Below are positions 21,908-24,759 of a stretch of DNA of 33,980 nt, in pieces. The notes beneath the pieces are model-generated. The model did not search any database. It was given only the letters and a program-made list of their open reading frames with translations, and was not told where the DNA came from. The DNA comes from Streptomycetaceae bacterium. Its GTDB lineage: Bacteria; Actinomycetota; Actinomycetes; Streptomycetales; Streptomycetaceae. Position 1 is the stretch's first letter. The number at the start of each line of letters is the position of its first letter. Where the stretch lies: NCBI GenBank assembly GCA_019243445.1, contig JAFAUH010000035.1, forward strand, positions 1 to 33,980, written 5' to 3'. The translations under genes and the position numbers were made by a program.

Positions 21908-21952
21908 TTGATGAGCTGTCAGCTGACTTCATGTCAGCTGGCAGCTCATCAA
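21908..21952. terminator. strong bidirectional hairpin terminator
   Basis: A 20-bp arm (21908-21927) pairs with 21933-21952 at 19 of 20 positions around a 5-nt loop TTCAT, which is exceptionally long for this window. It separates the MFS exporter from convergent nadE. The nadE stop codon (21949-21951) lies within the right arm. Confidence 0.85.
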
Positions 21953-23727
21953 CTTCCTTCGCGCCAGCGGTTGGTGATGGGGAGGCGGCGGTCCTTGCCG
22001 AAGCCCTTGGCGGTGATTTTCGTGCCCGGCGGGTACTGGCGGCGCTTGTACTCGGCTGTGTCCACCAGGCGTAGGACCCGCGTCACCGTCTCCGCATCGA
22101 ATCCGGTGGCAATGACCGCTTCCCGGCCCTGGTCCTGCTCGACGTACAAGTCGAGGATGCGGTCGAGCAGTTCGTAATCGGGCAGCGAGTCCGTGTCGAC
22201 CTGGCCGGGACGCAGCTCGGCGCTGGGCGGTTTGACGATCGAGTTCTCCGGGATCGGCGGGGTCTGGCCACGCTCGACGGCGGCGGCGTTACGCCACCGC
22301 GCCAGCTCCCAGACCTTGGTCTTCAGCACGTCCTTGATCGGCGCGAAGCCGCCCACCGCGTCGCCGTAAAGCGTTGAGTAGCCGCAGGCCAGCTCGGACT
22401 TGTTGCCGGTGGCCAGCACCAAGTGGCCCTCCTGGTTGGAGATTGCCATCAACGTGGTGCCGCGCAGCCGGGCCTGCAGATTCTCCTCCGCAAGGCCCGT
22501 CAGGTGCAGCGACCCCATATACGCGTCGAACATCGGGCCAATCGGGACGGTCCAGTAGTTCAGGCCGGTACGCCGGGCCATCTCCGCAGCATCACTTTGG
22601 GAGTGCTCCGAGGAGTAGCGCGAGGGCATCGAGACCGCATACACATTGCGCGCGCCGATCGCGTCACAGGCGATCGCCGCGACGAGCGCCGAATCGATAC
22701 CGCCGGACAGGCCGAGCAGCACACTGCGGAAACCGTTCTTCGTGAGATATGCGCGCAGCCCGACGACCAGAGCCACGTAGATCTCCTCGTCGTCCCCGAG
22801 CCGCGGCGACTGCTCACCGCTTTTGTGTTCGCCTCGCTCACCGCGCGCCTGAGGCTCATACGCCGACAGCGGCTCCGCCGAGATCGTACGGTGCTCGATC
22901 TCCAGGCCGTCGTCCGCCATGCCCGAAGGCGCCTCCTCGGCCGCGGCGGGCAGCACGAGGTCGACGAGCGCACAGCTCTCCTCGAACTGCGGCGCACGCG
23001 TGATCACCTCGCCCTCCTCTGAGACAACAATCGAATCGCCGTCGAAGACCAGCTCGTCCTGCCCACCGGTCATCGCCAGATACGCAAGGGTGCAGCCTGC
23101 CTCCTGGGCGCGCTTGCGCACCAGCTCAAGACGGGTGTCGTCCTTGGCCACCTCGTACGGTGAGGCGTTGATCGACAGCAGCAGCCCGGCACCCGCGGTA
23201 CGGGTGGCCGGCACCCGGCCACCGTCTTGCCACAAGTCCTCGCAGATGGCGAGCGCCACGTCGATGCCGTGCACCCGGATGACGGGGAGGGTGTCACCCG
23301 GCACGAAGTAACGGAATTCGTCGAATACCCCGTAGTTGGGCAGATGGTGCTTGGCGAACGACAGCACCACCCCTCCGCGGTGCAGCACGGCCGCGGCGTT
23401 CTGCGGTGCCCCCGCAGGCTGCCCGTAGCGGGGCTGCGCCCGCTCACTGCGGTCGAGATACCCGACGACCACCGGCACCTCACCGAGCCCCTCATCGGCC
23501 AGGCGTTCCGCGAGCGCGGCGAGCGCAGTCCGCGACGCTTCGACGAAGGACGACCGCAGCGCGAGATCCTCGACTGGATATCCGGTCAACGCCATCTCGG
23601 GGAACGCGACCAGATGGGCACCTTGATCGGCCGAATGACGGGTCCAGCGCACGATCCGGTCGGAATTCCCCGCGAGATCCCCGACACACACATCGATCTG
23701 ATTGAGGGCGAGACGAAGCTGAGGCAC
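21949..23727 (-). CDS. nadE: glutamine-dependent NAD+ synthetase
   Basis: 592 aa. The N-terminal nitrilase-fold glutaminase has the catalytic triad Glu44 (FPEMALTG), Lys126 (AKHHLPN) and Cys162 (AICEDLW). The C-terminal synthetase has the PP-loop SGGIDS (341-346), plus LATGNKSELACGYSTLYGDAVGG and a C-terminal KRRQYPPGTKIT segment. It converts nicotinate adenine dinucleotide to NAD using glutamine nitrogen. The start is GTG 23727. There is no Shine-Dalgarno, and TACGCT lies 6 nt upstream, so the mRNA is probably leaderless. Its promoter region abuts a 160-bp inverted repeat. Confidence 0.95.
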   Translation of the reverse strand: MPQLRLALNQIDVCVGDLAGNSDRIVRWTRHSADQGAHLVAFPEMALTGYPVEDLALRSSFVEASRTALAALAERLADEGLGEVPVVVGYLDRSERAQPRYGQPAGAPQNAAAVLHRGGVVLSFAKHHLPNYGVFDEFRYFVPGDTLPVIRVHGIDVALAICEDLWQDGGRVPATRTAGAGLLLSINASPYEVAKDDTRLELVRKRAQEAGCTLAYLAMTGGQDELVFDGDSIVVSEEGEVITRAPQFEESCALVDLVLPAAAEEAPSGMADDGLEIEHRTISAEPLSAYEPQARGERGEHKSGEQSPRLGDDEEIYVALVVGLRAYLTKNGFRSVLLGLSGGIDSALVAAIACDAIGARNVYAVSMPSRYSSEHSQSDAAEMARRTGLNYWTVPIGPMFDAYMGSLHLTGLAEENLQARLRGTTLMAISNQEGHLVLATGNKSELACGYSTLYGDAVGGFAPIKDVLKTKVWELARWRNAAAVERGQTPPIPENSIVKPPSAELRPGQVDTDSLPDYELLDRILDLYVEQDQGREAVIATGFDAETVTRVLRLVDTAEYKRRQYPPGTKITAKGFGKDRRLPITNRWREGS

Positions 23728-23733
23728 TCGCCC

Positions 23734-23739
23734 AGCGTA
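23734..23739 (-). promoter_or_regulatory. -10 box of nadE, probable leaderless transcript
   Basis: On the minus strand the hexamer is TACGCT, ending 6 nt before the nadE GTG. The corresponding -35 would fall inside the adjoining 160-bp inverted repeat, so that element should affect nadE transcription. Confidence 0.45.
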
Positions 23740-23740
23740 A

Positions 23741-23900
23741 CGACTTGGTACGCGATAGGGAGCAGCGGGCTCTCGGCGTCATGCGGCTTCGAATCCAAGG
23801 CGGAGGAGGGAGGCGACGCGGAGCGTCGTTGACCGACGACAACGCAGGAGGCTTCAGTCGCATGACGCCGAGAGCCCGCTCCCTATTGCTCCCCAAGTCG
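23741..23900. repeat. 160-bp imperfect palindrome flanked by TAA (MITE-like)
   Basis: Ends pair in blocks: CGACTTGG (23741-23748) with 23893-23900; a 6x6 internal loop; ATAGGGAGC (23755-23763) with 23878-23886; a 3-nt bulge; then 19 perfect pairs, 23767-23785 with 23859-23877. The 73-nt centre has a perfect 6-bp hairpin, CGACGC-GGA-GCGTCG (23814-23828). TAA lies on both sides (23738-23740 and 23901-23903), as a 3-bp target-site duplication would. No transposase is encoded. Alternatives are a structured non-coding RNA or a composite terminator/regulatory element in the nadE promoter region. Confidence 0.6.
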
Positions 23901-23994
23901 TAATCGTCCACCTGACGCGCTGGGTCGGCCGGGGCTCGGGCGCGCACGGCGCGCCTGCGCATGCGCGGCGCCCGGTACCAGGGGATCATGCGTC

Positions 23995-24759
23995 ATGGCG
24001 CTCCCCACCCGTCCCGTCTGCCCCACCCGCCACCGCGACGCCATGCGGTCCCGCCGGTGTCCACACCGCTGGGAACTCCGGCTGATCGGCGCGCTGCTGC
24101 TGCTCGGCGCCACCGCGTACGCCGCGGGGGGGCTTGAAGCCCTCCTCGTCACACGGCTGCACCCGCTGCACTCGCTGCACCCGCTGCACGCATACGCCGG
24201 CGAGCCATCCGCGCAGCACAAGCCGCTCGGCGGGATCTTTCGTGCGACGGATGTGGTGGCCGGGCTCGCCGTCCTTAGCGGCAGCGTGATCGCGCTTGCC
24301 CGCCTGCCCGCCGGCTGTCGGCCACTATCAGCGACCGGCTGGGCGTCGCTCGCGCTCTTCGGCACCGTCACCGCCGTGGACACTGCACACGGCGTGGCCG
24401 GTTCCCTCACCGTGCTCTGCGCACTGGCGGGGCTCATGACGCTCACAGTCGCTGCCCGTCGCTATCACTGCCGGCCACGGCTCGCCCGCGTCGGCCCCTA
24501 CCTCCTCGCGGCCGAACTCGGCGCCACCGTGTGGACGCTGGCCGCCACCGCAGCGTTCGAAGCCTGGCACGTCAGATGGGCTCTGGGTACGGGCCGGCGC
24601 GCACAAGTCGCCCTCATCGCCGTCTGGCTCGCGGTGCTGGGCACCTCGGTGTCGAGGGAGTGGGGCGGCATGTCCCACAATGGCGGTACGACACGGACGA
24701 CGCCGCGGACGAGGATGCGAGCCGAGGACGTGAAACGCGCCGGAAACCGGGCGGAGTAA
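23995..24759 (+). CDS. polytopic membrane protein of unknown function
   Basis: 254 aa with about six hydrophobic segments (GALLLLGATAYAAGGLEAL, then four or five between residues 80 and 220) and a basic C-terminal tail. The overall pattern resembles DUF998-type proteins, but this is only an impression. The start ATG 23995 has AGGGG about 10 nt upstream; a second ATG at residue 17 is possible. A run of HPLHSLHPLHAY comes from a 9-bp tandem repeat in the DNA (24157-24192). It precedes glnA2 by 86 bp on the same strand and may share its transcript. Confidence 0.65.
   Translation: MALPTRPVCPTRHRDAMRSRRCPHRWELRLIGALLLLGATAYAAGGLEALLVTRLHPLHSLHPLHAYAGEPSAQHKPLGGIFRATDVVAGLAVLSGSVIALARLPAGCRPLSATGWASLALFGTVTAVDTAHGVAGSLTVLCALAGLMTLTVAARRYHCRPRLARVGPYLLAAELGATVWTLAATAAFEAWHVRWALGTGRRAQVALIAVWLAVLGTSVSREWGGMSHNGGTTRTTPRTRMRAEDVKRAGNRAE
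24157..24192 (+). repeat. 9-bp in-frame tandem repeat
   Basis: CTGCACCCG, CTGCACTCG, CTGCACCCG and CTGCACGCA follow one another, adding a histidine/leucine-rich loop to the membrane protein. The 9-bp unit keeps the frame, so copy number could vary without breaking the gene. Confidence 0.7.

Follow-up and report, generated by a model that had tools for sequence, protein, structure and literature searches.

A dispersed, MITE-like palindrome with a covarying fold lies in the nadE upstream region of a Streptomycetaceae bacterium

Introduction

The window, which is the whole stretch of 33,980 nucleotides analysed here, contains a 160-bp imperfect palindrome directly upstream of nadE, whose start lies at 23727 on the minus strand. 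An initial annotation of this DNA offered two readings of the palindrome. Either a MITE-like element has inserted and reshaped the promoter, or the palindrome belongs to this locus alone, as a structured RNA or a regulatory element. This poses the question whether the palindrome is a mobile element, a structured element or both, and what its insertion means for nadE.

The element at the nadE locus

The palindrome and its flanking TAA words can be read directly from the DNA at 23738-23903, as first described (Table 1). Pairing of the two ends is slightly more extensive than initially reported. Inverted repeats connect 23764-23788 with 23856-23880 (25 nt, 96%) and 23740-23763 with 23878-23901 (24 nt, 83%), and the centre does carry a hairpin of its own. 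Folded as RNA, the plus strand of the element reaches -113 kcal/mol, compared with a shuffled mean of -67 (z = -10.6; 0/200 shuffles), and the minus strand -96 kcal/mol (z = -7.3). The element is placed between the nadE-type gene on the minus strand and a plus-strand open frame at 23995, for which no Pfam match was found. It contains no transposase gene, for which it is too short. Neither an intrinsic terminator (a G+C-rich stem followed by a T run; 0 in the window copy) nor a sigma-70-type consensus promoter was found within it.

Table 1. Positions of the element, its parts and the neighbouring nadE features in the window
Feature	Position	Strand	Basis or remark
nadE, glutamine-dependent NAD+ synthetase type	21949..23727	-	NAD_synthase + CN_hydrolase domains (PF02540 + PF00795)
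nadE -10-like hexamer TACGCT	23734..23739	-	first two bases in target duplication; TANNNT in most close relatives
TAA target duplication, left copy	23738..23740	.	sequence and one-TAA empty site in G001/L092
Mobile palindromic element, 160 bp	23741..23900	+ (structured strand)	direct sequence reading, genome copies
Left outer arm / terminal inverted repeat CGACTTGGTACGCGATAGGGAGC	23741..23763	+	mosaic of two end types of own genome
Left inner arm, 25 nt, 96% complementary to right inner arm	23764..23788	+	inverted-repeat search
Conserved core, 5' strand CAAGGCGGAGGAGGGA	23796..23811	+	conservation across Actinomycetes
Central hairpin GGCGACGC-GGA-GCGTCGTT	23812..23830	+	fold; covarying
Conserved core, 3' strand GACCGACGACAACGC	23831..23845	+	conservation across Actinomycetes
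Right inner arm	23856..23880	+	inverted-repeat search
Right outer arm / terminal inverted repeat	23878..23900	+	inverted-repeat search, copy comparison
TAA target duplication, right copy	23901..23903	.	sequence and empty site
Displaced conserved nadE upstream block, native GCGTCGNNNNGACGA, here GCGTCAGGTGGACGA	23904..23918	-	relatives' nadE upstream regions

Copies, empty sites and the nadE promoter

One other genome of the same genus was compared (G001, locus L092); its nadE upstream region reads CCCAGCG-TAA-TCGTCC, which corresponds to the target without the element. This empty site holds one TAA, confirming that the two words around the palindrome are a 3-bp target duplication, as had been proposed. 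The uninterrupted CAGYGTAATCGTC also occurs in several further genera of Streptomycetaceae. Within its own genome the element has 74 matches, of which about 16 are long copies at 84-96% identity and many are shorter. A covariance model, made from an alignment of 24 copies, detects 21 core-bearing copies in this genome versus none in G001. All 12 full copies measured carry TAA/TTA on both sides in different flanking DNA, and the copy L017 does likewise, bringing the resolved cases to 13/13.

Since the family is multicopy, carries TAA duplications and has an empty site in relatives, the window element is almost certainly a non-autonomous, MITE-like element that entered the nadE promoter at a TAA, duplicating these 3 bp. 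The family has the terminal inverted repeats, the short target duplication with a matching empty site and the dispersed copies without transposase that characterise MITEs, and its duplicated words, TNA or CTAG, are those of the IS5 family. It works like a MITE and has the structure of one, except that no autonomous partner was found.

The opposite arrangement, one copy kept at nadE in all relatives with compensatory base changes, was named in the initial annotation as incompatible with mobility. Instead, about 20 further copies lie at unrelated places, and the nadE site is empty in G001 and in further relatives. This also makes a locus-specific regulatory RNA of nadE, which would account for the position upstream of that gene, extremely improbable. 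A locus-specific riboswitch or terminator is ruled out by the empty sites, the dispersed copies and the count of 0 terminators in the window copy.

Contigs C128, C308, C196, C198 and C44 of G000 start inside an element copy. The repeat thus breaks up the draft assembly, which may therefore understate the number of copies.

How does the insertion affect nadE? In most close relatives the distance from TANNNT to the GTG start is 6-7 nt, a spacing suggestive of a leaderless nadE transcript. The conserved block GCGTCGNNNNGACGAT lies directly upstream of this -10-like motif in relatives, and the insertion point is located between the block and the -10-like TACGCT. The target duplication retains TACGCT at nadE, and the upstream block, in which one mostly conserved base is changed (GCGTCA), is now 163 bp further off. 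Since the -10 is kept but the conserved block has moved, transcription or regulation of nadE has probably been changed. The element had been assigned to the -35 position of nadE. It does split the block from TACGCT, but the block itself is only a candidate -35 or operator. Likewise, the proposed reshaping of the promoter holds at the level of sequence only, where block and -10 are separated. At this locus, a central metabolic gene has been parted from its conserved upstream control block. The GCGTCGNNNNGACGATTA block is present in many Streptomycetaceae (L092-L112; 23904-23918 in the window) and represents a candidate regulator site for the NAD synthetase gene.

Selection on a folded single strand

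The alignment of 24 copies comprises 33 pairs, 21 of which are changed on both sides, and 94% of its cells are paired. None of 500 shuffles was as good, and slid controls fell to 27-52% paired. In a second alignment of 30 diverse matches, which was fitted to the covariance model and is thus biased toward the structure, 26/33 pairs show compensatory changes. Compensatory base changes exceed both shuffled and slid controls, as expected for a structured RNA. Wobble pairs (G.U) are far in excess of A.C mismatches on the structured strand, at 108 to 9 (12:1) in the alignment that was not fitted to the structure and 120 to 3 in the fitted one, and this excess is present in the arms and the central hairpin alike. 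Because the excess lies on that strand, the selected fold can be assigned to one strand, which is very probably under selection as a folded single strand. The selected strand probably acts as RNA from the plus strand of the element, although the G.U excess would also fit a strand-specific fold of single-stranded DNA. Of the second initial reading, the structured element therefore stands, and is family-wide by its compensatory changes and the preference for G.U over A.C; its restriction to this locus does not. The mobile and the structured reading are both true and do not exclude each other.

A fold of the plus-strand DNA could be recognised by a Y1/HUH-type enzyme, as in a mobile single-stranded hairpin of the REP/RAYT kind. 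The strand-specific fold, the arms that are kept complementary and the GNA-type triloop in many copies are in line with such an element. However, clean 3- to 4-bp target duplications combined with terminal inverted repeats are a DDE hallmark, and REP/RAYT and IS200/IS605 elements are not known to produce a target duplication. We therefore consider a mobile DNA hairpin very unlikely.

The 5' core strand presumably resembles the twister-sister ribozyme (GCAAGGC.GA). A search of Rfam 15 returned no covariance-model match at the gathering score and only weak generic hairpin matches; twister-sister, other ribozymes and Rfam relatives were ruled out for lack of a model match.

Spread across Actinomycetes

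Beyond its own genome, the exact 22-nt end was found in one other named species of the GTDB contig collection, Streptomyces colonosanans (9 stretches), whose elements have ends identical to the own-genome type and a diverged interior and core. BLASTN matched the interior in 200/396 Streptomycetaceae genomes. With the covariance model, the core was matched in 100/395 sampled Actinomycetes genomes, representing 27/138 genera, with up to 79 copies each. Copies per genome are irregular: 21 here, 79 (G007) and 31 (G008) in two other genera and 0 in many. About 12 near-identical copies in G450 and the 79 matches in G007 argue for recent activity of the family.

The 30 diverse matches keep GCAAGGCGGAGGAGGGAG ... 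GAC.GACGACAACGC, while nearly all positions of the arms and the central hairpin vary, with compensating changes. Between lineages the arms and ends are wholly different, yet they remain self-complementary. A second core variant, GCAAGGCGGAGGGTCGTCC...CGACAACGC, was observed in the high-copy sets examined (G007, G008; L350-L369). Weak matches also exist outside Actinomycetes, one of which (G945) retains the outer core motif. The full element had no match in phages; 51 mycobacteriophage matches of 28 nt within a tail gene were taken as chance and dismissed as a sign of phage carriage.

No annotated feature lies beneath the element on any plasmid record examined. A search of the open literature, to which it was confined, for Streptomyces MITEs, palindromic repeats and the core sequence found no prior description, and the family is apparently undescribed so far. 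A covarying, many-copy element that is present in about a quarter of the sampled Actinomycetes genomes and absent from Rfam constitutes a sizeable annotation gap in an industrially important group.

Ends and candidate transposases

At least three end types occur: CTAG-GGYSTGTC..., TNA-GAGG(N)... and TNA-CGACCTG..., the type of the window. In related genomes, DUF4096 (IS5-type) transposase genes are flanked by the ends CTAGGGCCTGTCC, CTAGGGCGTGTCT and GAGGGCG. The resemblance of these ends to the CTAG-GGYSTGTC and TNA-GAGG types fits a mobilisation of those two in trans. The outer bases are like IS5 transposon ends in G532 and the CTAG-type lineages, unlike those of the lineage in the window, and DUF4096 transposases with similar outer ends are found in some genomes only.

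The own genome, S. colonosanans and three further genomes yielded no autonomous element with CGACCTGGGG ends: a pair of CGACCTGGG(G) ends separated by about 0.7-2.5 kb was detected in neither the own genome nor the four others, an absence that is weak given the 414 contigs of the own assembly. The end pattern of G450 retrieved only 165-bp and ~85-bp elements and no autonomous partner, and no DUF4096 gene was found in G450 or G461, both of which hold many copies. With no partner bearing CGACCTGGGG ends and no DUF4096 gene in two many-copy genomes, the mover is only inferred and the link to IS5 unproven.

Could the element be an ordinary MITE, derived from an IS by internal deletion, in which the core is nothing but inherited filler and subterminal sequence bound by the transposase, with no RNA function? 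Terminal repeats, target duplications, multiple copies and the IS5-like ends in other lineages would all be explained. However, the core is near-invariant across families and the ends are wholly different, the reverse of a MITE defined by its transposase. In addition, covariation and the 12:1 ratio of G.U to A.C require selection on a folded single strand, and no IS carrying the core was seen. This simpler origin thus appears unlikely, although it is the strongest of the alternatives considered here.

With IS5-type MITEs the element shares its small, gene-less form, terminal inverted repeats, 3-4 bp target duplication (TNA / CTAG) and multiple copies, and some of its lineages end in CTAGGG(C/T)(C/G)TGTC like local IS5-type transposons. 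Unlike them, its ends vary by lineage, the feature conserved over the class being an internal structured core, and for the window subfamily no same-ended partner was found. Mobile or formerly mobile intergenic repeats with an RNA fold include bcr1 of the Bacillus cereus group, NEMIS/Correia of Neisseria, BOX of pneumococcus and ERIC. These are unlike the present element in sequence, and its core spans many families of one class. A recent review of prokaryotic MITEs treats BOX and ERIC, and a term search of it gave 0 occurrences of Streptomyces or any 'Actino-' term (PMC10969869).

Stop codons and gene context

Of 32 resolved mixed cases, 13 have a target duplication that falls on the stop codon ending a long coding-like frame. 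The expectation is 1.6, based on occurrences of these words at other places in the flanks, with a small CTAG control set (15 and 2 words). In G007 and G008, 8/8 resolved insertions at CTAG lie on in-frame TAG stop codons. Neighbouring genes are convergent in 12 cases versus divergent in 4, and no clear orientation bias was seen in tandem contexts judged by codon-position G+C (7 vs 7). On eleven plasmid records with gene tables, two of which share one gene neighbourhood, the copies lie between annotated genes, and the right-hand gene is convergent in 10/11. Placement on stop codons may reflect target scarcity and survival rather than active targeting, since CTAG and TAA are rare in these G+C-rich coding sequences and selection removes insertions from within genes.

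This context might suggest a terminator or mRNA stabiliser that has been domesticated at gene ends and spread through selection for termination. Frequent insertion at stop codons and the prevalence of convergent neighbours, including those on the plasmids, are in line with such a host-serving 3'-end element. The distribution is sporadic, however, with 21 copies here, 79 in another genus and 0 in G001, and the conserved internal loop would be superfluous for a plain terminator. Moreover, the window copy has no terminator-like site and is located in a promoter, not at a gene end. We thus regard a host function of this kind as quite improbable. SPRITE / REP elements at gene 3' ends are similarly palindromic and often lie just past stop codons, but the present element exceeds them considerably in length, its asymmetric internal loop is conserved, and its clean target duplications recreate the stop codon.

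Proposed mechanism and role of the core

We favour, with some reserve, a MITE-like element that is mobilised in trans and whose conserved single-strand structure is probably needed for its own spread. In this model, an IS5-type DDE transposase encoded elsewhere would recognise the terminal repeats, cut or copy the element in trans and join it at TNA or CTAG, producing the duplication. The ends may drift or be swapped with the partner transposase as the core is retained. The core itself would act as a folded single strand, most likely RNA from the plus strand. Copies would survive where harm is small, often on stop codons, where the duplicated word recreates the stop and so makes an insertion harmless.

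The core probably serves propagation of the element or its tolerance by the host, and not a host function at a fixed locus, since copies are sporadic and turn over fast and the core is almost fixed over the class. Among these options a role in propagation is the most likely, at slightly less than an even chance; protection of the palindrome and binding of a host factor are less likely. A bolder and unlikely version is that the core is the functional RNA of a new actinobacterial mobile element. Here, the RNA would promote mobilisation in cis or in trans, for instance through recruitment of a transposase or host factor or through a bias of insertion to stop codons, and the RNA core would define the element, its DNA ends being interchangeable between transposase systems. 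Two testable questions follow: whether RNA or a folded strand can define a non-autonomous element independently of its transposase, with a conserved core and exchangeable ends, and whether copies at stop codons set the 3' ends of actinobacterial mRNAs.

Arms, core-less derivatives and nested repeats

About 20 core-less derivatives with the same ends were found (G000 loci L121-L140), mostly 48 bp plus TNA flanks, and a clean target duplication is retained in only a minority. Within a single such copy the two arms share their substitutions and differ by 1.5 mismatches, versus 3.9 between copies (permutation p < 1e-4). These palindromes may have arisen in situ, when full elements lost the DNA between their GGGAG repeats; they may also mean that the core is not needed for movement.

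The window copy is a mosaic, with an outer left arm of the TACGCG type, as in L017, and an outer right arm of the GGGAGCA type. Relative to other copies, its inner arms are almost perfectly complementary. In the G450 copy L241 (G450:C86:68050-68214), the core is inverted relative to the arms and one arm occurs on both sides. The simplest explanation may be homogenisation of the arms by hairpin-templated conversion or inversion, and in our model such conversion would make the arms alike again.

A second small hairpin repeat of the GGGGGTACCTCCC...CTGGGGGAG type is nested in the apical loop or arm of L017 (G000:C47:16000-16199), L213 and L218. It is apparently another Streptomyces hairpin family, for which the element serves as a landing site.
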